Shown: piece after piece, positions 49,581 to 61,169 of the stretch | How the letters are laid out: every line of letters starts with the position of its first letter | Numbering within the stretch: the first letter of the stretch is position 1 | Program-made: the position numbers and the translations under genes | The notes under the pieces: model-generated | What the model was told of the DNA's origin: nothing | Seen by the model: the letters and a program-made list of their open reading frames with translations, nothing else | Database searches by the model: none | Assembly (NCBI GenBank): GCA_022649665.1 | Contig: JALCOL010000001.1 | Span: forward strand, 186,001 to 250,000 | From: Enterococcaceae bacterium | Lineage (GTDB): Bacteria; Bacillota; Bacilli; Lactobacillales; Enterococcaceae | Length of the DNA stretch: 64,000 bases | Reading direction: 5' to 3'

Positions 49581-50051
49581 TTTAGAAAATTTTGACAGAA
49601 AGAGAAATTGATCACGTTAAGGATAGTGAATGGGATTTGGCGCAGCTTCGTGAAACACGATCCTGAAGATGCTTAGAATCATTGGGAGACCAGACGCTTG
49701 AATTGTCACGGGTCTTCTCAATCAAATGTTTAGTGAGTTTGAATATTTTTTATGATTCTTCAAAAAGTCAGTCTTTAAGCTATTTACGGCTTATCAGATA
49801 TTACCATAAGGAAGCCATCTCACAGTACGGTCTCAAAGATACCAATATTGCGAAATAATCAAAATAATGTGCATACAACGTTTGTCAGACTGCATCTCTT
49901 GGAGACAGTCTGTTTTTTTGTATGGTTTGAAAGCCACCTGCTATGCGGGTGGTTCAGGGGAGCTTCCAGCGAGGTATAAAAAAAGCCTCCTAAAATGATA
50001 AACTGATGTTGGTTTCTCGACCGTATCATGATCAGATTAGGAGGTGCCCTT
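49581..50051. other. Gene-free scar region
   Basis: 49581-49825 shows no intact gene or recognised element. 49826-49922 is the second copy of the rpmE2 end with its own terminator. From about 49931 the left end of an IS200/IS605-type element begins, with the hairpin CCACC..GGGTGG. Confidence 0.7.
49826..49922 (+). repeat. Direct repeat, right copy (rpmE2 3' end plus terminator)
   Basis: It carries the last codons of an rpmE2-like gene, a stop codon in the same place, and a terminator stem (CAGACTG / CAGTCTG) with seven T. It is not preceded by the rest of the gene. See the left copy at 49020. Confidence 0.85.
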
Positions 50052-50665
50052 ATGAAAAAGGACGCAAACAGTTTAGCACATACCACATGGAGAGGTAAGT
50101 ATCACATTGTTTTCGCTCCCAAGTATCGTAGCCAAGCCATTTATGGAAAATATAAACAAAGTATCGGAGAAATTATTCACGCACTGTGTGAAAGAAAGGG
50201 TGTCGAGAGCATTGAAGCCAATGCATGCAGGGATCACGTTCATATGCTGGTAAGCATCCCACCCAAATTAAGCATGTCGCAGTTTAATCGGTTATTTAAA
50301 AGGAAAAAGTAGTTTGATGATTTTTGATCGTCATGCCACTTAAAATAGCGATATGGAAACCGAAAATTTTGGTGTCACGGATATTATGTGGATACGGTCG
50401 GACGAAACAAGGAGAAGATCGCAGAATATATTCGCGAGTAAATCAAAGAAGACTATTTAGCAGATCAGCTCACCCTGTTTGAAGAATATGACCCGTTTAC
50501 AGGAAATAAGAACAGCAAAAAAGATCATCGCTAAAGGATTCTTTTAGAATAAGTGCGTAAAAGTGGTGCGAGAGGGAAAACCACTCAGAGGGCCTTTTAG
50601 GCCGTGCCGGCAGAAGAGGCTTTCAGCCGCAGAGCAAGCCACCCGTTCGCACGGGTGGTTTTGAT
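49931..50665 (+). mobile_element. IS200/IS605-family element, degenerate
   Basis: Both ends carry the small hairpins typical of this family (AGCCACCTGCTATGCGGGTGGTT at the left is a CCACC/GGGTGG stem; at the right 50636-50661 has CCACCCG/CGGGTGG). Between them lies a single tnpA reading frame that is broken. No tnpB follows. Just upstream of tnpA, GCCTCCTAA (49987-49995) can pair with TTAGGAGG and hide the ribosome site, as known for IS200. Confidence 0.8.
50052..50531 (+). pseudogene. tnpA: IS200-type transposase TnpA, inactivated
   Basis: The frame opens at ATG 50052 behind AGGAGGTGCCC and codes for 87 residues of a Y1 HUH transposase, with the HUH motif in RDHVHMLVSIPPKLSMSQF. A one-base change in the A-rich stretch near 50300-50309 shifts the frame and stops it. 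The remainder (MIFDRHA, KFWCHG, YYVDTVGRNKEKIAEYI with the catalytic Tyr) continues in another frame with two further stop codons. The element cannot transpose by itself. Confidence 0.85.
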
Positions 50666-50687: not shown

Positions 50688-51375
50688 TTAAGCAGTTTTT
50701 TCGGTGTGGAGAATGGAATGGTCTTGAAAAACAAGTCCTTGGATCCTGTAGATCCGCACGCGAAAGTTCAAGAAGTTTCGATAGCCGTGTGGGCAAATCT
50801 TTTCATGACTTTGATCTCGTTGTTTGTTCCTTCGACCGGACCGTTGTTGTAGTTGACTCGCAGGGCATTTTCGATCCCTGAGCGGTAATGTTGGAAGAAG
50901 CGGGTCCAGCGAATCGATCAGCTCAAAGAAGTGTCGGCTGTTTTTTTGTTTGAAGTGGCAGCACAGAAGCTGACAAGTTTCATAGGCAGAACGCAAGCGC
51001 TCATCATAGGTCAGTAACTCGTTCAAGATCGCCTGGTCCGCAATGAACTGTTTGAAAGAGCGATCATACCGGTAATTCGAGCTGTTCAAATCATCGGAAT
51101 CTTTTAAAAGGAGCTTCCAAAGCCGCTTCAGCCGCTGATACTTTTGGGGATTCGCTTTTTTGAAGCGATTCATCGTCTGGACGCGCGGCTGATTGAACGA
51201 GCGGGGTCTGTCCACTGAACATCGCGCCGCATTCTTTGCACAAAAAGCGGGAGCGCTTCAACTCCAAGATCGTTTTCTGAGACTGGATCGGCAAGATCTG
51301 GACCGTCAGCTGGTCTTCTTTTCGTTCGGTCAGCCAATTTTTGCTGAAGCTGAAAGAGAGATTTTTATCTGTCAA
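50688..51375 (-). pseudogene. ISL3-family transposase remnant
   Basis: Two pieces of an ISL3-type transposase are visible on the minus strand. The N-terminal piece (51180-51375) has KDKNLSFSFSKNW-like and KRSRFLCKECGAMFSG segments, the latter from the zinc-binding region. The C-terminal piece (50688-51180) has NPQKYQRLKRLWKLLLKDSDDL, DLRETY-like ERLRSAYETCQLL and NFRVRIYRIQGL. The catalytic core between them is missing and the frame is broken at least twice. Intact family members are about 430 residues. Confidence 0.8.
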
Positions 51376-51914: not shown

Positions 51915-52763
51915 TTACACAAAGAATAATTTCTTTTCACTTTCAATCAATTCATATGAGAATTTATCTTCAAATAATGCTGCTATATCAAGAGCCTTTT
52001 TAATTAGTTTGTCATCTTTTGTTAAAAAACTTTTGCGAGCAATGGCCAATGAGTAGTAATCATAACGTTTAATTTTTTTTGCGATGATAATAGCCTTGTC
52101 AATGACAGTTTCGGCATAACTAAATTGCTTATTTTGGAGACATAATAACGTAATGTTTAAATAAATAGCACATTGTAAAGAATTTGTGTCTTCCAAATCA
52201 TCGTATTTTTTTAATTGCTGAATTAATTGGTTAGAAATGTGAATAGAAGTTTCAAGAGGGAACATATATAAGCAACAATTAATAAGCTTGATATCATCCA
52301 TATTCCAAGAGGAATATTTTTGGAGATTTTCCCATGGCACAGATAGGATTATTTTCGGAAGACAAGGAATATCTTTTTTATCGTTAGTTGAAAGTTCAAT
52401 TAATGAATTAATAATATAGTGCAATAATTCAATTGTTCTGCTGAAAGAATTTTCTTGAAGTAAAAGACATTTTTTTTTGAGTTCAAGTAAATGACTTTCT
52501 TGTTGATTGGAAAATAAAGAGAAAAAGAGGTGAAGTATCCGTTGCTTCTCATTAAGTTTATAATCTTGATTAATATAAAGAAATTCGTTAAAACCAATAT
52601 CAAGACGATTTAACAATTCTATAAAAGTTGTCACAGAAGGTATTAATTTTCCGTTTTCAAATTTAGATAAGGTAGTTCTTGAAATTAAGTTTTTACAAAC
52701 TACAGCCTGCGATATTCCCCGATTTTTTCTGAGTTCACGATAAGTTACCCCAAAGTCATTCAT
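51915..52763 (-). CDS. Rgg-family transcriptional regulator
   Basis: This 282-residue regulator has an N-terminal helix-turn-helix (YRELRKNRGISQAVVCKNLISRTTLSKFENG) and a helical repeat domain of the Rgg/MutR C-terminal type (SWNMDDIKLINCCLYMFP, then repeats to the end). Rgg proteins are activated or inhibited by imported short hydrophobic peptides. The ATG at 52763 follows GGGGGAG. The gene is AT-rich, unlike the core genome. It is divergent from a pheromone-like gene and a peptide-modification operon, the arrangement of streptococcal Rgg/SHP-controlled RiPP loci. Confidence 0.88.
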   Translation of the reverse strand: MNDFGVTYRELRKNRGISQAVVCKNLISRTTLSKFENGKLIPSVTTFIELLNRLDIGFNEFLYINQDYKLNEKQRILHLFFSLFSNQQESHLLELKKKCLLLQENSFSRTIELLHYIINSLIELSTNDKKDIPCLPKIILSVPWENLQKYSSWNMDDIKLINCCLYMFPLETSIHISNQLIQQLKKYDDLEDTNSLQCAIYLNITLLCLQNKQFSYAETVIDKAIIIAKKIKRYDYYSLAIARKSFLTKDDKLIKKALDIAALFEDKFSYELIESEKKLFFV

Positions 52764-52841: not shown

Positions 52842-52856
52842 AACGAATTATTCGTT
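52842..52856. promoter_or_regulatory. Inverted repeat between rgg and the pheromone gene
   Basis: AACGAA TTA TTCGTT is a perfect inverted repeat 22 bp upstream of the small-peptide start and in the divergent control region. It could be a regulator site or a 5' UTR hairpin. Confidence 0.4.
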
Positions 52857-52899
52857 GTTAAAAAAGGGGAGATTATAATGAATATTTATAGTTTGTTGA

Positions 52900-52905
52900 T
52901 TTTAG
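52900..52905. repeat. Target-site duplication, left (TTTTAG)
   Basis: The six bases TTTTAG flank the element on the left and recur at 55063-55068. Confidence 0.85.
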
Positions 52906-53009
52906 TGTCAACGGCACCTTTAAAATGTAGGAAAACGGCAATTTAAAATTGTTGGTTTTCCTACATTTTTGTATGCTCTTCTTATCCCAAATGAAATGGA
53001 GGCTCAGGG

Positions 53010-54248
53010 ATGAGAAAAGACATACGCGAAGGAGTGATGATCTACATGATCAATGAAATCAAACCCAATTATGCTGCACTGGCAAAACAATACGACTGCG
53101 ACTACCGAACAGTTAAGCGTGCTTACGAAGAAGCTCAAGATAAAGAATCAAAACCTCCAGAACGTAAGAAGCGCCCGAGTAAGTTAGATCCCTACAGAGA
53201 AATCATCCAAGATAAAATTAAAGACCAATGCAGTGCTTACAGTATTTTTAAGTTTATTGAACGCAAAGGATTTGGAGGAAGCTACAGTTTAGTAAAGACC
53301 TATTGTCGTCAGCTTAAGCAGGCGAAAGTACACAAGGCAACCGTCCGAGTCGAACATAGTCCCGGGCTTTCTGCTCAGGTTGATTGGAAGGAAGATATGC
53401 GACTAATCAGTAATCATGGCGAAATTTTTGAATTCAATATCTTTTTGTACGTCTTGCCATATTCCAAGAAAAAATATGTCACACTAACTTTCGACCGGAA
53501 ACAAGACACACTCTTTGAGTGCTTAGATGACGCGTTTTATCAAACCGGTGGCGTTCCCAAAGAAATCTGGTTCGATAATATGAAGACAGTCGTTGACCAT
53601 TCTCGTAGTCAGTTTTCCAAACCGCATTTCAACGAACGTTTTTATGCCTTCAGTAAGGATGCCGGCTTCACGCCCATTGCCTGTCGGGCATTTCGCCCGC
53701 AAACAAAGGGCTGTGTCGAAGCTTTAGCCAGGACTGTTGACCGCCTACGGGTCTATAATCATGAATTTTATGATGCCGTTGAGCTGTGCCATTTAGTGAA
53801 TGACCTTTGTGTTGAGCTAAATAACGAGGTTTCTCAATCAACTGACCAAACACCAGATGATCGTTGGCAGACAAACGAAAAAGAGCACCTGCATCCATAC
53901 CCAAAAAACCTTTTGAATCCCTATTTTGAAGACTTTATTCGCCGTAAAGTCACCAAGGAAGCAATGGTCATTTTCCGTAAATGCAGGTACTCTGTGGCGC
54001 CTCGCTATATCGGTAAAGAAGTCGAGATCGAACTCTCCGATAAAGAAGACCAAGTACAGATTTATTATAACGGAGAACTGATTCGGTCGCATCCATTAAC
54101 GACAAAACAACTGAACTACCACGAGGAAGACTATTTCCAAATCTTGAAATCCGATGTCATGAGTCACAAAGAAGACGATGAAATCAGAGCGTATACTCGT
54201 GAAAGTCTCAAGCAATATGATCTGGTGGAGGTTGCTGATGAAGAATAG
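53010..54248 (+). CDS. istA: IS21-family transposase IstA
   Basis: IstA (412 residues) is the DDE transposase. It has an N-terminal helix-turn-helix (NYAALAKQYDCDYRTVKRAYEEA) and the catalytic residues in AQVDWKED, EIWFDNMKT and TKGCVEALAR, then a C-terminal beta-barrel-like domain. The ATG at 53010 follows GGAGGCTCAGG. It overlaps istB by eleven bases and is uninterrupted. Confidence 0.95.
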   Translation: MRKDIREGVMIYMINEIKPNYAALAKQYDCDYRTVKRAYEEAQDKESKPPERKKRPSKLDPYREIIQDKIKDQCSAYSIFKFIERKGFGGSYSLVKTYCRQLKQAKVHKATVRVEHSPGLSAQVDWKEDMRLISNHGEIFEFNIFLYVLPYSKKKYVTLTFDRKQDTLFECLDDAFYQTGGVPKEIWFDNMKTVVDHSRSQFSKPHFNERFYAFSKDAGFTPIACRAFRPQTKGCVEALARTVDRLRVYNHEFYDAVELCHLVNDLCVELNNEVSQSTDQTPDDRWQTNEKEHLHPYPKNLLNPYFEDFIRRKVTKEAMVIFRKCRYSVAPRYIGKEVEIELSDKEDQVQIYYNGELIRSHPLTTKQLNYHEEDYFQILKSDVMSHKEDDEIRAYTRESLKQYDLVEVADEE

Positions 54249-54978
54249 CCATTACCAAGAACTGATGACCAACTTAGAGACTCTTGGTTTGAATCATATG
54301 CGGGAATATGTTCCTAACTACATCGAAGTGGCCAATCGAGAGGAGCTTTCTTTAACGGAAGCCCTTCTTGAGCTGACACGCAGAGAAGTGGATCATCAAA
54401 ATAAGCAAAAAATGAATCGTGTGGTGGCACGCGCCCGCTTTCCTAAGAGAACCAGCCTGGAAGAGTTTGATTTTGCCTTCCAGCCAAGTATCAATAAGCG
54501 TGAAGTGCTAGACTTAAAGCACATGGGTTTTGTGGAAAAACATGAGAACTTAGTCTTTATCGGCAGTCCTGGTGTGGGCAAGACGCATCTGACGATTGCA
54601 TTGGGAATTGAAGCATGCCGTCAAGGCTATCGGACACTATTCATCACCTGTCATGAGCTACTTTTGCGTCTGCGAACAGCCTATGAAAAAGGTACCCTAG
54701 AACGTGTCCTCAACCGATACGCTCGCTATGACGTCTTGATTATTGATGAAATTGGCTATCTTCCGATTCATAAACAAGAAGCTGATTTATTCTTTCAGCT
54801 TCTTGCCATGCGCTATGAACACCGCTCTACGATCATTACGACGAACATTGTCTTATCTCGTTGGGGCGAGTTGTTCCAAAGTCCTGAGATCGCAGCTGCC
54901 ATCCTTGACCGTTTAGTACATCACGTCAAAGTGTTCAAGATTACAGGCAAGTCTTATCGTATGAGAGACAAGATCTAA
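54238..54978 (+). CDS. istB: IS21-family ATP-binding helper protein IstB
   Basis: IstB (246 residues) is the AAA+ ATPase that selects target DNA and helps IstA. Walker A is GSPGVGKTH, Walker B LIIDEIGYLP, with sensor TNI. The start at 54238 follows GGTGGAGG and overlaps the istA stop. Confidence 0.95.
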   Translation: MKNSHYQELMTNLETLGLNHMREYVPNYIEVANREELSLTEALLELTRREVDHQNKQKMNRVVARARFPKRTSLEEFDFAFQPSINKREVLDLKHMGFVEKHENLVFIGSPGVGKTHLTIALGIEACRQGYRTLFITCHELLLRLRTAYEKGTLERVLNRYARYDVLIIDEIGYLPIHKQEADLFFQLLAMRYEHRSTIITTNIVLSRWGELFQSPEIAAAILDRLVHHVKVFKITGKSYRMRDKI

Positions 54979-55062
54979 AGTGTCGATTGCCGACAATTAT
55001 TACTGCCGAAAACCTACATTTTTATCCTGCCGAAAACCTACAATTTTAAGCTGCCCTTGACA

Positions 55063-55068
55063 TTTTAG
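55063..55068. repeat. Target-site duplication, right (TTTTAG)
   Basis: The second copy of the 6-bp target duplication, followed by the 3' half of the pheromone gene. Confidence 0.85.
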
Positions 55069-55153
55069 TAACTGGTTGGATAATTGGTGGATAAATAGCT
55101 GTTATTTAGAGTGTAATAACTCTTTATATAAAATAATTAAAGGAGGAAAAAAG

Positions 55154-55249
55154 ATGAATAAACCAAAATTTTTCAGTGTTGATTCTCTAAAAACAGTCTC
55201 ACTTCTAGCGGGTACAACACCAAAGCAATGCGCACAAGGAAGAATTTAA
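55154..55249 (+). CDS. Candidate RiPP precursor peptide, 31 residues
   Basis: A 31-residue frame starts at ATG 55154 with an excellent AAAGGAGG site. The N-terminal part is lysine-rich with a hydrophobic stretch (VSLLAG); the C-terminal part reads AGTTPKQCAQGRI with a single cysteine at residue 26. It lies 170 bp upstream of a radical SAM maturase gene and 59 bp after the broken pheromone frame. Size, ribosome site and place fit a radical-SAM-modified peptide precursor. It does not show the KxxxW, NxxC or GRC motifs I know from streptococcal families. The modification is unknown; thioether, epimer or carbon crosslink are all possible. Confidence 0.7.
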   Translation: MNKPKFFSVDSLKTVSLLAGTTPKQCAQGRI

Positions 55250-55418
55250 GTAGTTAATAAGAATAAATTATATGGGAAAAAGGTATAATTTCCTAGCTGA
55301 CTTATAGTTGGGAAGTAAAGTCTTTTATTTGAATTAGCTTTAATCTATTGATTCAATTAAGAGATTTTTGCTTTCCAATTATTTTTAGGCTATTCAAACT
55401 AAAGATAGGAATGATTGG
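55250..55418 (+). promoter_or_regulatory. Leader between precursor and maturase genes
   Basis: It contains TATAAT (55284-55289), a possible internal promoter, and a weak TTGAAT/ATTCAA hairpin (about 55337-55363). No gene was seen. Confidence 0.35.
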
Positions 55419-56705
55419 ATGTACATATCTTTGAAAAATAATAACTTTATACTTGAACAACCGAATAAAATACTTTTTTCTTATATCATAAAAGGTTCCA
55501 GAATGTTGGTGAACATTAATGATAGTGCAAAACAAATCTTACTGAGATTGAATGGGATATATACAATAGATGAAATTATTAGGGCATTAGGCAAAGAATA
55601 TCAAGAAGATTTTTTAATCGTTAAAATGATGGTTGAAAATTTTTTAGATGAATTAAGGGAGAATTCTCTTTTAGAAGAACATTCTATTTCAATTGAGAAA
55701 AATATAAAAAGGGGATATAGCAATCTCTATACTCCAGAACATGTTACGTTAGAGTTAACACATAATTGTCCCTTAAAATGCCAACATTGTTTTTTAAATG
55801 CCGGAATTGGAAAAGAAATGCCTTTCGAAAAATGTGAACAGGTCGTAACAGAGTTACTTGAATCGGGTACAAGAATATTTCAGTTAACAGGTGGGGAACC
55901 TTTTTGTTTCAAAAAAATAAATAAGATAATTAGTCTATTAATTAGTGAAGGAGCGGAGATACATATTTCTACAAGTGGATATATTTTAAATGATGAAGTA
56001 AAAAAATCTCTAGAAATGTTAACTAGAAATGGCAATGCAATTATTCAAGTTTCAATAGACGGTACAAAAGAATCACACAATTATATTCGTGGAAGAAAAG
56101 ATGCCTATGAGAAGGCAATTGATTTTGCTAAATATTCAATATCAAAAAAAATCTCAACAGTTGTTGCGACAACACTGATTCATCAATCACTTGAAGAAAT
56201 AGAAGAGCTTGTAGCCTACTTGAAAGAAATAGGTGTTAATAAAATACGACTTGGGCTAATTACCAATCAAGGAAGAGCATATCAAAATAATTTGAAAGGA
56301 TACACATTATCACATTATAAAAAAATGTTGGTGTATTTAAAAGAAAAGTATGACGATAAATTGTTTCGAGTAGAAGAATCAGAAGAAATTTCGAATAGTT
56401 TGAAAAGTTGTGGAGCTGGCTATAAAACCATTAAGATAACGCCGCAAATGATCGTAACGCCGTGTGCAATGATGCAATTAAATATAGGAGATCTAAAAAA
56501 AGAAAGTTTAACCAGAGTTTTGGAAAGAAGTTATATAAATTTTTCCAAACTAGAATTTCCACAGAAAGATTATTGTGAAAATTGCTTAGAAGAAGAATAT
56601 TGTCATGATTGTATTTCTGAATCAATAATTAGAAAAAACAATGTAGAGAATTGCACATGGGAAGATAGTCAGCATGAAGTTTTGAATGCTCTAACGAATC
56701 AATAG
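55419..56705 (+). CDS. PqqD-like/radical SAM/SPASM peptide-modifying enzyme
   Basis: This 428-residue enzyme has three parts. Residues 1-88 form a PqqD-like recognition domain (NINDSAKQILLRLNGIYTIDEII) that would bind the leader of the precursor. The radical SAM domain carries the 4Fe-4S motif C117-x3-C121-x2-C124 (NCPLKCQHC) and the SAM-binding TGGEP (157-161). The SPASM domain has cysteines near 331, 349, 386, 389, 395, 398 and 412 for two further clusters. The layout matches sactipeptide- and streptide-type maturases. The gene is AT-rich and follows the precursor candidate. The ribosome site is AGGA. Confidence 0.9.
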   Translation: MYISLKNNNFILEQPNKILFSYIIKGSRMLVNINDSAKQILLRLNGIYTIDEIIRALGKEYQEDFLIVKMMVENFLDELRENSLLEEHSISIEKNIKRGYSNLYTPEHVTLELTHNCPLKCQHCFLNAGIGKEMPFEKCEQVVTELLESGTRIFQLTGGEPFCFKKINKIISLLISEGAEIHISTSGYILNDEVKKSLEMLTRNGNAIIQVSIDGTKESHNYIRGRKDAYEKAIDFAKYSISKKISTVVATTLIHQSLEEIEELVAYLKEIGVNKIRLGLITNQGRAYQNNLKGYTLSHYKKMLVYLKEKYDDKLFRVEESEEISNSLKSCGAGYKTIKITPQMIVTPCAMMQLNIGDLKKESLTRVLERSYINFSKLEFPQKDYCENCLEEEYCHDCISESIIRKNNVENCTWEDSQHEVLNALTNQ

Positions 56706-56724: not shown

Positions 56725-57934
56725 ATGAATAAAAACAAAGGATTTATTAAATTGATCACAGGTCAAACGATTGCAAATATTGGAGATACGATTTATATCG
56801 TTGTAATAATCATGTCGGTTTTTAGTTGGACGAATTCCGTTTTTGCGACGTCTCTCATCCCGGTGCTAGTGACAGGCGGGACGGTTGTTGCGGGTTTTAT
56901 TTCTCCCGTAATCACCTCCCGTTTTCGCTTAGAACAAGTATTGAAAATTAGTCAGTTTTGCAAGACGCTCTTACTATTTTTTATGACTTTTTATCTATAT
57001 CTGCGAGGGTCGACAATGAATCTTCTTGTATTATATAGTCTGGTGGTGATGATCTCCTGTGTAGATGGCTGTTCCGAGCCGATCAGCCGAGCTCTGATTC
57101 CAATATATGTCAAAAAAGAAAAACTGATCCAAGCAAATGGAATATTTAATTCAATACTCCAAATAGTAAGTATTGGAAGTTGGATGCTAGGGACATCGCT
57201 ATTGATTTTTTTTTTCCATCTATCAGTTGATCTTGTTTGATACCTTTTTATTTTTTTTAGCGTCTTTGATATTAGTATCTTTACCAAAAACAAAAAGAAA
57301 TGATTATAAAAATAGATCAATTTGGGTGGAATTATTTAATGGGTGGTATTTTATCGTCAAAGAGCCACTTGTTCGAATGATCGTTGGGATGGATATCTTA
57401 GAGAGTATCGCGAACACTGCGTGGCTTTCAGCGATCGTTCTGGTTTTTGTACGGGAAGCAATGAATGTGTCGGATAGTTGGTGGGGATATATTAATGCTA
57501 CTTATTTTGCCGGAGCACTTATCGGGAGTTTTTGTGTGATAAGATTTTCTTTGAAGTTCGAAAAAAATGAAGCTTCAGCAGTCATCATTGGATCAATCTG
57601 GGGCGGGTTAGCAACCATAGCTGTTATTTTGGTAAAAAACAATCTTTTTATTTTATTTTTATCTGTGTCTATTGGCATTTTTTCACAAATAAAAAATATT
57701 CCCCAAGCTTCATTGCTCCAACAAAGAATTCCTAGTGAACGATTAATGCCTATTTATGCAGCCTCTGGGATTTTGAATTCTGGGGCATTTGCACTCGCGG
57801 CTCTGTTCATGGGACAAATCGCAGATATTTTCGATGTCAAGATCGTTTTCGTCTGTTCGGGAATTCTGCTGATTATCGTCGGAATGCTCGCCATTCGAAA
57901 TCAAGAGCTGATCTCAAATGAAGAGCCATGCTGA
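56725..57934 (+). pseudogene. MFS exporter, frameshifted at a T10 tract
   Basis: The first frame (56725-57240, 171 residues) begins NKNKGFIKLITGQTIANIGDTIYIV, typical of MFS efflux pumps. It stops shortly after ten consecutive T (57206-57215). The second frame continues to 57934 with six more helices and the ending RNQELISNEEPC. Removing one T joins them into a protein of about 402 residues, the usual length. The gene lies 20 bp after the maturase and would export its product. The break may be a real mutation, a phase-variable or slippage site, or a sequencing error. Base composition is mosaic, with host-like stretches. Confidence 0.8.
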
Positions 57935-58046
57935 TCATTCATTGAGTGTATTTCCACCTAAGACACGGTTTCGAAGAAGTGATAAACTGGAGAAAATCAA
58001 AACTTTCCAATTTTATTTGCTTCAATCGGTGTCTGGAGGACAGTTG

Positions 58047-61000
58047 ATGAATAATAAAATAGATATATTGAACGCGTGGATCACGATCGAGCAGTTATCT
58101 GAAGGTGCGATCAGTAAAACGGATAAAAATCTCAGGAAATTCAGCGCACAGCAAAGCGACGAGTTTTCGGAGATGTTTATAGAATTTTTGAATACACAAA
58201 AGAAAACACACAAACTTTCCGAGAGAAGATTCAAAAAGTCGGGACTGGTCGTTTATTTCGATATTTTCAGTTTCCAGGAAATCATCGATATCTTGCGGCG
58301 AAATTATCATATTCCTGCAACGTATGAAGAAATCGATCCCTCGAACAAATTTACTTTTGCTTTATATTTCGATAATGAGCTGGGTTTTATTCCCGAAAAG
58401 CTTTTCTTTACGATCAGCGGCTACATTCGCTACAAAGGAGAATTGCCGCAGAAATTTTTAAAAGCGGAAGAAGAGTTGCGCGATGATTTGAAGAAGCAGT
58501 TCACTGATAAGAAATTTGATGATGTCATCAGGGATCTCTTGGTGCAATACAACGTATCGCTGCAAGACTGCCGCTATGCGTTCCTTGAGAATCTTGAGAC
58601 GAGCGATATCAATCTGCATTCTTTTTTTATTGATGATCTCGAGAAGGCAAAATCACTCGATACCGCAAATTTAACACGCTATTTCTCAGGTTTTTCTGGA
58701 CAAAGGATCAACTTGGACAGCAAAGCTGACTCTCCCAATTTTGATCCGCAGCCTTTTTTTGAAATTTTGCAGCCAGACCATTACCCGTTAGGACGTTTTC
58801 CTAGTAATTCAGATTATGCACTTTCGTTTATGCAGGAAGTCGCGGTCAATTTGGCGCTGAATGATAAAAATGATATCCGCAGTGTCAATGGTCCTCCGGG
58901 AACGGGGAAGACGACTTTGCTGAAGGATATTTTTGCGGAGCTGATCGTTCGCCAAGCCGCCGAAATTTGCGCACTTGCCGATAAAAAAGCCGAGGGCCGC
59001 CTAGTTTACTGGAAAAATGCCAAACTTGGCACACTTCCGCAGCAAATTTCAAATAAAAACATCGTCGTCGCCAGTTCGAATAATGGAGCAGTCCAAAATA
59101 TCGTCAATGAGTTGCCCCAGATCGATCAAATATCTGAAGAATTTCGTGATGAGATCATGAAGACAGACTATTTTAAACAGGTCGCCAATTCTAAATTAGA
59201 AGCCAAATGGGAAAATAATGAGGGTAAAAAGACACGGGAACTCAAAAGCGAAGCCCTTGAAGAGAAGAATTGGGGAGCGTTTTCGCTTGAAGGCGGCCGG
59301 TCGGAGAATATCAGCAATTTGCTGCTGAATATTGAGTTCATGGAGAACTCTCTGAAAGATGAATACGAATCTGATCCAAGCATCTATCAAGAATTTTCCA
59401 CGCAGCTCCAGGAGCTGCAGGGCGAGCGCAGCCAAATGCAAAAAGATTATGAAATGCTCAAAGAACTTGCGATTTTAAATAAAAAATACGAAAAAACAAG
59501 CAAAGACTATGCTGACGAAAGAGAGCAGCGAAAGGCCGCGCTGGAAAATGCGCGGCAAGCAGCAGATCAGCAGCTCACCCAGTTGCAAACAGCAATCAAA
59601 ACAACGACCTCAGCGACAAAAGAAATGGAAGAGGAGTTATCAGAAACATTACAGCTTCTCACCGAAGCCCAAAGAAATTTTGAGGTCGTCCAGACGCAAA
59701 AGCCCAGTTTGCTCTGGCTGCAGAAAATTTTTAACAAAAACAAAGCAGAACATTATTTTTCCGAATTAAATTTGGCAAATCAAAAATTGACAGAACTAGC
59801 GGCAAAGCGACAGCACTTGAAAACAGAAAAAAAGAAACAGCTTAAAGAGAAGGCTGAACAAGAGAAAGAACAAAGCGACATCAAAACAGCAATCGAAGAC
59901 ACCAAAACCGCATTTGACCGCTGGGAAAAGCTCCAGCAAAAAGAAGCGGCCGACTTGGAAGGTAAAATCGATTCACTGACGGAAGCGAGAAAAGAGCGAG
60001 ATATCGAAGAATTGGATTTTTCCAAGTCATATGCTGAACTGCAAAAGTCAAATCCGTGGTTTGCAAAAGGGTATCGCATCAAGCAATCAAAATTATTTAT
60101 ACGTGCACTGGCGGTCAGAAAACAATTTTTATTTGAAAATCGCCGAAATTTATCCGCTGCGCGGAGGATCTGGGAACGCCAAAGCGAGTATGTCGCGAAA
60201 GAGAACGGACACGTGCTGTTGAGCGAAGCATGGCAGTGGCTGAATTTTGCGGTGCCGGTAGTGAGCACCACCTTTGCAAGCTTTGGGAGGATGTTCAAAC
60301 ATCTCCCGAAAGAGGCGATCGGCAATTTATTTATTGACGAAGCAGGACAAGCTTTGCCGCAAGCAAGCGTAGGCGCGGTATTCAGAAGCAAACGAGTGAT
60401 GGTCGTCGGTGATCCGGCACAGATCAAGCCGGTATTGACATTGGATGCAAAAGTCTTGAATCTTTTAGGCCAGCATTTTGAGGTCGATGAAGCGTTCGTT
60501 TCCGCTGATGCCTCGACACAAACGATCGTCGATGCGGCAGGTCAATACGGATTTCAAAAGACGAAGGAAGAATGGATCGGGATCCCGCTGTGGGTCCATC
60601 GCCGTTCAGATGATCCGATGTTCACTATTTCAAATGAAATTTCTTATCATGGGTTAATGGTCCAAGGGAAGCCGCCGGAAAAGTCTCAAGGAAAATCAGA
60701 ATGGTTCGATGTTTCCGGGAAAGCAAATGATAAATACGTCAAAGAACAGGCGGAGCTTTTAAAAGAAAAGATCAGCCAAAAGCTGCGAGAAAATCCTGAA
60801 TTGGCCGACGAAATATATGTTATTTCACCGTTTAAGAATGTGGCCTTCCAGCTCGCACGGCATCTAGACAGCATTGGTTTTACGAAGCGGGAAAACGGAA
60901 AACCGGTAAATGTCGGGACGGTCCACACTTTCCAAGGAAAAGAAGCCAAAATCGTTTATTTTGTGCTCGGAGCAGATTCCAGCAGCAAAGGAGCTGCGAT

Positions 61001-61169
61001 GTGGGCCGTTTCTGAGCCGAATATCATGAATGTGGCGGCAACGCGCGCTAAAGAAGAGTTTTATGTTATTGGCGACAAACATCTGTATGGAACATTAGGA
61101 AGCAAAGTGGCCGATCAGACGATTTCGATCATCGAACAGTTCAATCAGAAAAGCGCTATATCATCATAG
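58047..61169 (+). CDS. Large superfamily 1 helicase / AAA ATPase
   Basis: This 1040-residue protein has an N-terminal region without a recognised domain (about 1-260), a helicase domain 1 with Walker A GPPGTGKTT (near 281-289), a long coiled-coil insertion (about 450-720), Walker B NLFIDEAGQALPQA (near 760-773), and helicase domain 2 with VGTVHTFQGKEAKIVYFVLG (near 955) and NVAATRAKEEFYVIGD. This is the Upf1-like SF1 architecture. The start at 58047 follows GGAGG. Composition is close to the core genome. It stands alone; roles in RNA or DNA processing, or phage defence, are open. Confidence 0.82.
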   Translation: MNNKIDILNAWITIEQLSEGAISKTDKNLRKFSAQQSDEFSEMFIEFLNTQKKTHKLSERRFKKSGLVVYFDIFSFQEIIDILRRNYHIPATYEEIDPSNKFTFALYFDNELGFIPEKLFFTISGYIRYKGELPQKFLKAEEELRDDLKKQFTDKKFDDVIRDLLVQYNVSLQDCRYAFLENLETSDINLHSFFIDDLEKAKSLDTANLTRYFSGFSGQRINLDSKADSPNFDPQPFFEILQPDHYPLGRFPSNSDYALSFMQEVAVNLALNDKNDIRSVNGPPGTGKTTLLKDIFAELIVRQAAEICALADKKAEGRLVYWKNAKLGTLPQQISNKNIVVASSNNGAVQNIVNELPQIDQISEEFRDEIMKTDYFKQVANSKLEAKWENNEGKKTRELKSEALEEKNWGAFSLEGGRSENISNLLLNIEFMENSLKDEYESDPSIYQEFSTQLQELQGERSQMQKDYEMLKELAILNKKYEKTSKDYADEREQRKAALENARQAADQQLTQLQTAIKTTTSATKEMEEELSETLQLLTEAQRNFEVVQTQKPSLLWLQKIFNKNKAEHYFSELNLANQKLTELAAKRQHLKTEKKKQLKEKAEQEKEQSDIKTAIEDTKTAFDRWEKLQQKEAADLEGKIDSLTEARKERDIEELDFSKSYAELQKSNPWFAKGYRIKQSKLFIRALAVRKQFLFENRRNLSAARRIWERQSEYVAKENGHVLLSEAWQWLNFAVPVVSTTFASFGRMFKHLPKEAIGNLFIDEAGQALPQASVGAVFRSKRVMVVGDPAQIKPVLTLDAKVLNLLGQHFEVDEAFVSADASTQTIVDAAGQYGFQKTKEEWIGIPLWVHRRSDDPMFTISNEISYHGLMVQGKPPEKSQGKSEWFDVSGKANDKYVKEQAELLKEKISQKLRENPELADEIYVISPFKNVAFQLARHLDSIGFTKRENGKPVNVGTVHTFQGKEAKIVYFVLGADSSSKGAAMWAVSEPNIMNVAATRAKEEFYVIGDKHLYGTLGSKVADQTISIIEQFNQKSAISS

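Follow-up and report, generated by a model that had tools for sequence, protein, structure and literature searches.

The question raised by this locus is whether a 31-codon open reading frame (ORF) lying before a radical SAM maturase gene encodes a real peptide precursor and, if so, what the maturase would do with its single cysteine. The window, that is, the whole stretch of 64,000 nucleotides from an Enterococcaceae bacterium that was analysed here, carries in order an Rgg-like regulator gene, an insertion sequence, the short ORF, the maturase gene and an exporter gene. The reading discussed below, to which about even chances are given as a whole, is that the short ORF encodes the precursor of a rare, unlisted "CAQGR" subfamily of Rgg-linked radical-SAM peptides, with a Cys26-Gly29 thioether, export by an MFS protein and former control by Rgg.

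The precursor gene

The ORF at 55154-55249 on the forward strand (ATG at 55154-55156, TAA at 55247-55249) reads as the 31-residue peptide MNKPKFFSVDSLKTVSLLAGTTPKQCAQGRI, in which the leader carries KPxF and the single Cys is residue 26, close to the C-terminus AGTTPKQCAQGRI. The codons of CAQGRI, Cys26 to Ile31, occupy 55229-55246 (+), and Trp and Tyr are absent, the aromatic side chains being confined to Phe6 and Phe7 in the leader. A strong ribosome site, AAAGGAGG, stands upstream of the ATG, and under the rule used for short ORFs (AGGA, GGAG or GAGG before the start) this is the sole ribosome-site ORF of 15-90 aa that starts between the end of the insertion sequence at 55062 and the maturase gene, from which it is separated by 169 bp. 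Between the two genes lies a candidate terminator-like hairpin (55288-55316, +), a match to the consensus only; no such hairpin was found in the stretch scanned around the related cluster of genome G085 described below.

Conservation beside related maturases

A profile search with the maturase through 105 genomes of the window's family (E 1e-40) matched four genomes, the window's own included, and the closest maturase found elsewhere, that of G085 (locus L002), shows 50-52% identity. In the same position relative to that maturase is a 32-aa ORF, MMGKPEFVLSNSNQNATMGSGSTVVNCAQGRK, which ends in CAQGRK. Twelve of the 31 aligned residues of the two precursors are identical, including KP, F and CAQGR as well as an upstream Gly and Thr, and none of 20,000 shuffles reached 12 identities, the maximum being 10; residue 25 is Gln in the window precursor and Asn in that of G085. 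The first-pass annotation had taken 55154-55249 for a real single-Cys precursor and had proposed that precursors beside close maturase homologues be compared, a lack of conservation there counting against it. The position, the ribosome site and the G085 counterpart, which keeps CAQGR, confirm the precursor.

The motif is narrow. In a tree of 12 maturases, the window and G085 enzymes form one clade with 99/100 support, and just one of the nine other genomes on this branch carries CAQGR; the other eight maturases of the branch (28-37% identical to that of the window) adjoin different cores, as do for example those of G080 and G024, at 34% and 28%, respectively. A profile search of a second family (f3, 245 genomes, E 1e-30) matched eight genomes, six of them on the window's branch, and in all six CAQGR was not seen among the ribosome-site ORFs beside the maturases and the corresponding DNA pattern was absent. 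This pattern, C-A-Q-G-[R/S]-x-stop with TAA or TAG as the only stops, occurs in three of the 105 family genomes, namely in the window's (G000:C1:241229-241249, equal to window 55229-55249), in G085 and, as CAQGS, at a third site whose open frame spans 12 aa. Matches in eight of 240 f3 genomes were considered as further relatives and rejected: all share identical matched letters within an open frame of 10 aa, so that none is a precursor of the CAQGR kind. As only two precursors carry CAQGR, the invariance of each residue of the motif is weakly tested. A second feature, [KT]-P-x-[FIV] near the N-terminus, is shared more widely: among the branch precursors, which were chosen by eye from lists of short ORFs, it is present in seven of ten genomes (G000, G085, G080, G816, G806, G799 and G790) and absent in G024, G820 and G832.

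Wider searches with the maturase gave four of 395 genomes in an order sample (E 1e-60; the own genome included and all four in the window's family) and two of 398 in a class sample (E 1e-50; the own genome included), and none among 29 and 201 genomes of two further families (E 1e-40, without a positive control). In a wider contig scan the single match, an unrelated locus, reached 24% across residues 106-282 of the query, and viral contigs gave no match. All 184 matching plasmid records are less than 60% identical to the maturase (21.6-27.1% among the 20 matches listed), and the four matching phage records reach 22.9-23.8% only. A search for the StsB family at 1e-100 matched none of 240 genomes, but also none of 14 controls, and so carries no weight.

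Several loci met in these searches are recorded here in their own right. In G820 and G832 (both f3), several ribosome-site peptides precede one branch maturase, 36-37% identical to the window's; those of locus L012 at 208-285, 658-744 and 1369-1458 are MKRAKLCAQEPKACPLWHHISSKPF, MESAKIVALNVGGCPFLTTWYPRPYWKS and MAEAKIFEREMFTCTEIIPFCAPWKHWKF, and similar ORFs, also MKRAKMFSLFPRACEISTTWCPPPYWK, are present in L013. With their Cys-, Pro- and Trp-rich ends, they possibly belong to another unlisted radical-SAM peptide family. In G080 (L003, 2828-3305, -), three tandem precursors of the form M[EQ]KPE[VI]L-x-C-N-[IL]-G-V-C... stand beside a maturase gene and also adjoin an ABC transporter and some apparently Agr-like genes, judged so by eye. 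The f3 matches in G950 and G909 are more distant than the six branch members; L018 of G950 (199-2751) has an Rgg-like regulator, a subtilosin-like precursor and an AlbA-like maturase, and L019 of G909 matches similarly. A second locus of G790 (L020 / L030) holds a decayed relative, a maturase copy with four internal stops near a short METPTIEVSQVALYIAVDVLPY peptide.

The maturase

The maturase gene (55419-56705, +) is intact and encodes 428 aa with a PqqD-like N-terminal domain, a radical SAM core with CPLKCQHC and a SPASM domain with seven Cys, all three domains exceeding the Pfam cut-offs. The cluster cysteines (117, 121 and 124; 331, 349, 386, 389, 395, 398 and 412) are invariant in 11 sequences. 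The claim of the first-pass annotation that the peptide adjoins a radical SAM maturase is thus borne out by gene order and domains, and the pairing of a short precursor with an adjacent radical SAM/SPASM maturase is one of the features expected of RaS-RiPP loci.

An AlphaFold2 model built from an 11-row alignment has a mean pLDDT of 87 and a pTM of 0.86. Its best solved structure by Foldseek is SkfB (6efn, E 2e-23, 21% identity), followed by SuiB and CteB, and VIA-align gives SkfB a Z of 32.3 over 360 residues (model residues 7 to 415, the N-terminal domain included), SuiB 27.9, CteB 21.9 and EpeE about 19.9. The sequence profile searched against solved structures agrees (6efn, E 2e-27; CteB, 9e-11). 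Among the NCBIfam models, SkfB (TIGR04403) is the best at 116.3 of 300 bits, followed by AlbA (NF012164; 98.6 of 850 bits), and the StsB-family sactipeptide maturase (NF045574) gives 54.1 of 625 bits, all three being below their cut-offs; the G085 maturase scores 153 bits with AlbA. Because the scores are far below the SkfB and AlbA cut-offs, the enzyme is regarded as related to those families without belonging to them. The PqqD-like domain, the SPASM domain and SkfB as the best fold make up the feature set of sactisynthase-type enzymes (RRE plus SPASM or twitch), although the fold leaves the chemistry unfixed, since SuiB, a carbon-carbon crosslinker, is also close.

Proposed former control and the IS21 insertion

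Divergent to the cluster is a gene for an Rgg-like (RRNPP) regulator of 282 aa counted from ATG (51915-52763, -). Its HTH_3 and Rgg_C domains exceed the Pfam cut-offs, and it reaches 27.3 of 36.9 bits with NCBIfam RGG_Cterm; among solved structures Lmo0325 (4ryk, E 7e-15) comes closest, and three weaker regulators also match. With the regulator of G024 it aligns significantly only over 64 N-terminal residues, and no Rgg-like regulator was seen by eye within 15 kb around the G085 cluster. A candidate operator is the perfect palindrome of 15 bp at 52842-52856, AACGAAT-T-ATTCGTT; at the window's own rate, about 0.1 palindromes of this kind would be expected in the 142 bp.

Between the regulator and the precursor is inserted an intact IS21-family element (52906-55062, +; istA 53010-54248, istB to 54978), with the ends TGTCAA...TTGACA and flanked by the target-site duplication TTTTAG (52900-52905 and 55063-55068). 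IstA (239.8 of 160 bits), IstB (278.3 of 200), the ends and the 6-bp duplication place it in the IS21 family. Joining the flanks as an empty site restores an ATG...TAA ORF of 17 aa, MNIYSLLILVTGWIIGG, divergent to the regulator gene and preceded by the ribosome site AAGGGGAG. Its 5' part now lies at 52878-52905 (+) and its 3' part at 55069-55094 (+, TAA at 55092-55094), ending 59 bp before the precursor ATG. The known Rgg signals include the hydrophobic GG-ending peptides DIIIIVGG and ETIIIIGGG, and the ORF also bears some likeness to VITGWWGL, a form of ComS. With its 17 aa it falls short of the pheromone peptides of 20-26 aa predicted for Streptococcus thermophilus (PMC12445099), and it is without the Asp/Glu of groups I and II. 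The Rgg-like regulator and its own pheromone would once have controlled expression of the precursor, and the IS21 element appears to have split the pheromone gene.

No second full copy of the element exists in the assembly, and this together with the perfect duplication makes the insertion look recent. It is about 95% identical to DNA of eight plasmid records, and in two of these the match spans at least 80% of its length. All eight are from Enterococcus, which suggests an Enterococcus-like host, and the streptococcal origin implied in the first-pass annotation is unsupported. The right end of the element may supply a hybrid promoter for the precursor (55057-55084, +), in which TTGACA of the IS end and GATAAT of the flank are spaced by 16 bp (11 of 12 consensus positions); an outward -35 box is a known feature of IS21-type elements, and fusion promoters of this sort are known to arise from them (PMC9330008). 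This is the best-scoring of 17 promoter-like sites, which as a class are not significant, as 14.6 occur in shuffles. The insertion is a natural experiment on the fate of such a peptide after loss of its pheromone gene.

The region around the cluster seems to be rich in mobile elements. Upstream, 50028-50312 (+) and 50688-51375 (-) resemble, by eye, remnants of IS200-type and zinc-finger transposases. Downstream, 57918-61169 (+) encodes a 1083-aa superfamily-1 helicase-like ATPase (AAA_11, AAA_12) with a weak match to the PLuB defence helicase; the frame listed for this ATPase opens within the last part of the exporter gene.

The exporter and the state of the locus

The MFS exporter gene (56725-57934, +) reads in two frames, 56725-57240 and 57227-57934. 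The best family match of the two pieces is the ryptide export MFS (NF041056; 96.8 and 145.2 bits), and the G085 exporter scores 233.2 bits with the same model, the cut-off being 575; every family match of the window pieces is below its curated cut-off. In G085 the exporter is one open frame of 398 aa after the maturase, and it aligns end to end across the window frames (residues 1-163 at 50%, 163-398 at 47%), the pieces meeting at a tract of ten T (57206-57215). This tract may be a slippage site, a read error or a true lesion. Directly after the G085 exporter follows a methyltransferase-like gene with weak family matches (L006, 4041-4736, -), and a similar one is situated about 8 kb away (L006, 12835-13548, -). 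The former could be a tailoring enzyme or a mere neighbour, and further tailoring in G085 is therefore possible.

The frameshift in the exporter gene and the split pheromone-like ORF may be signs of a cluster in decay, with the precursor and the maturase as left-over parts. This is conceivable but doubtful: the precursor and the maturase are intact with all cluster cysteines present, the insertion looks recent, and the exporter breaks at a T10 tract, where a read error or a reversible slippage is possible. Decay would, moreover, be compatible with the chemistry proposed in the next section.

Predicted chemistry and its alternatives

In the pathway proposed, the PqqD-like domain of the maturase would bind the N-terminal KPxF stretch of the leader, and the enzyme, being of the SkfB/AlbA kind, would remove the alpha-hydrogen of one residue and link its alpha-carbon to the Cys26 sulfur. 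Gly29 would be the likeliest acceptor, because the C-x-x-G-R spacing equals that of the second ring of streptosactin, a likeness of spacing only; the ring would then comprise the four residues Cys-Ala-Gln-Gly, with Arg next to it. A host protease would then trim the leader and the MFS protein would export the trimmed peptide. That a thioether is formed from the Cys, whatever its acceptor, is quite probable, and for Gly29 as the acceptor of this alpha-thioether the chances are evenly balanced. Of the suggestions made in the first-pass annotation, a single thioether is thus the best reading, the Cys being conserved and the fold closest to SkfB, and it stands as predicted chemistry. The annotation had also pointed to the GR dipeptide as a processing or crosslinking site; its Gly and Arg are indeed conserved beside the closest maturase, and a special role beyond this conservation is unsupported.

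The same precursor may instead carry its Cys thioether at another carbon or to another acceptor, namely Arg30 (i+4), Gln28 (i+2), residue 25 or Thr22, which is rather unlikely. Arg30, Gln28 and Thr22 are, like Gly29, identical in the window and G085 peptides, and a Gln28 acceptor would resemble the one-residue rings of suisactin, QMP rings holding one residue. An acceptor at residue 25 would resemble the thiomorpholine of the enteropeptins, and the methyltransferase-like gene directly after the G085 exporter could hint at tailoring of that type. Against this, residue 25 differs between the two peptides (Gln and Asn), none of the eight window proteins scanned around the precursor matches an arginase or a methyltransferase, and the presence of a second such gene about 8 kb from the first in G085 makes its tie to the cluster unsure.

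It is improbable that the maturase makes no use of the Cys, acting by epimerisation or a carbon-carbon crosslink and leaving the Cys free for another purpose. The fold matches do include SuiB, which forms a Lys-Trp crosslink, and EpeE, an epimerase, but SkfB ranks above both, the peptide has no Trp or Tyr for crosslinks to these residues, and the two precursors share the Cys although they differ at most other positions. Hardly credible is a chance ORF with a maturase acting elsewhere, to which the shortness of 31 codons would lend itself, since the closest maturase has a CAQGR peptide at the corresponding place, with a likeness attained by none of the shuffles, and since no other ribosome-site ORF of such size starts in the interval from the IS end to the maturase. 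If the ring is as predicted, this peptide of 31 residues with one Cys would offer a very simple substrate with which to study how the acceptor is chosen.

Comparison with known peptide systems

The first-pass annotation found no match of the C-terminus to the precursor motifs familiar from streptococcal radical SAM peptides, and this agrees with the absence of CAQGR from the list of 16 named RaS-RiPP subfamilies, compared by motif names and not by precursor sets. The string CAQGR was not found in the literature searched, most subscription journals lying outside its coverage. NxxC chemistry was rejected, there being no Asn three residues before the Cys. The ryptides (RRR subfamily) resemble the window in the exporter, whose fragments match the ryptide export family best though below its cut-off, but the window peptide has no Tyr for an Arg-Tyr crosslink, and their chemistry was rejected on this ground. 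The enteropeptins (KGR subfamily) of Enterococcus cecorum are likewise small one-Cys peptides with a nearby Arg, from an enterococcal setting such as would apply here. In their core KGRCPP, however, the Arg is directly before the Cys, and an arginase and a methyltransferase are needed. The window peptide has no Arg before its Cys, and neither enzyme is among the eight window proteins scanned (G085 has the methyltransferase-like neighbour), so that enteropeptin chemistry was not retained as the first choice.

SkfA/SkfB and subtilosin A/AlbA of Bacillus subtilis provide the closest maturases by profile and fold. SkfA has one thioether, as is predicted for the CAQGR peptide, with Met12 as the acceptor, from which SkfB abstracts the C-alpha hydrogen (PMC8326336). 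SkfA and subtilosin A, however, have longer hairpin cores (26 residues in SkfA; PMC8326336) with Cys in the N-terminal part, whereas the Cys of the window peptide is six residues from the C-terminus.

Streptosactin (GGG subfamily, S. thermophilus), NASCGPSHSCGGGR (PMC12445099), likewise has C-x-x-G-R at the core end, and its radical-SAM cluster is Rgg-linked, as the window's may be. Its links are Cys25-Ser28 and Cys31-Gly34 (PMC8172795, of which one passage prints Cys15 for Cys25), that is, it has two rings, C-G-P-S and C-G-G-G, whereas the window core has one Cys; the second ring reads C-G-G-G-R and the window peptide C-A-Q-G-R. The maturases were compared through the StsB-family model, which may not represent GggB, and the window enzyme reaches 54 of 625 bits with it. 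A more specific picture, which is distinctly unlikely as a whole, would be a minimal one-ring sactipeptide whose C-x-x-G-R ring arose apart from that of streptosactin in the SkfB/AlbA-like line, and whose pheromone control was replaced by the outward IS21 -35 box, so that production of a density-regulated peptide no longer needs a signal. Should the predicted ring prove right, the same C-x-x-G thioether would be the product of two maturases scoring as different families, and the comparison of the CAQGR peptide with streptosactin would show what the enzyme reads in its substrate.
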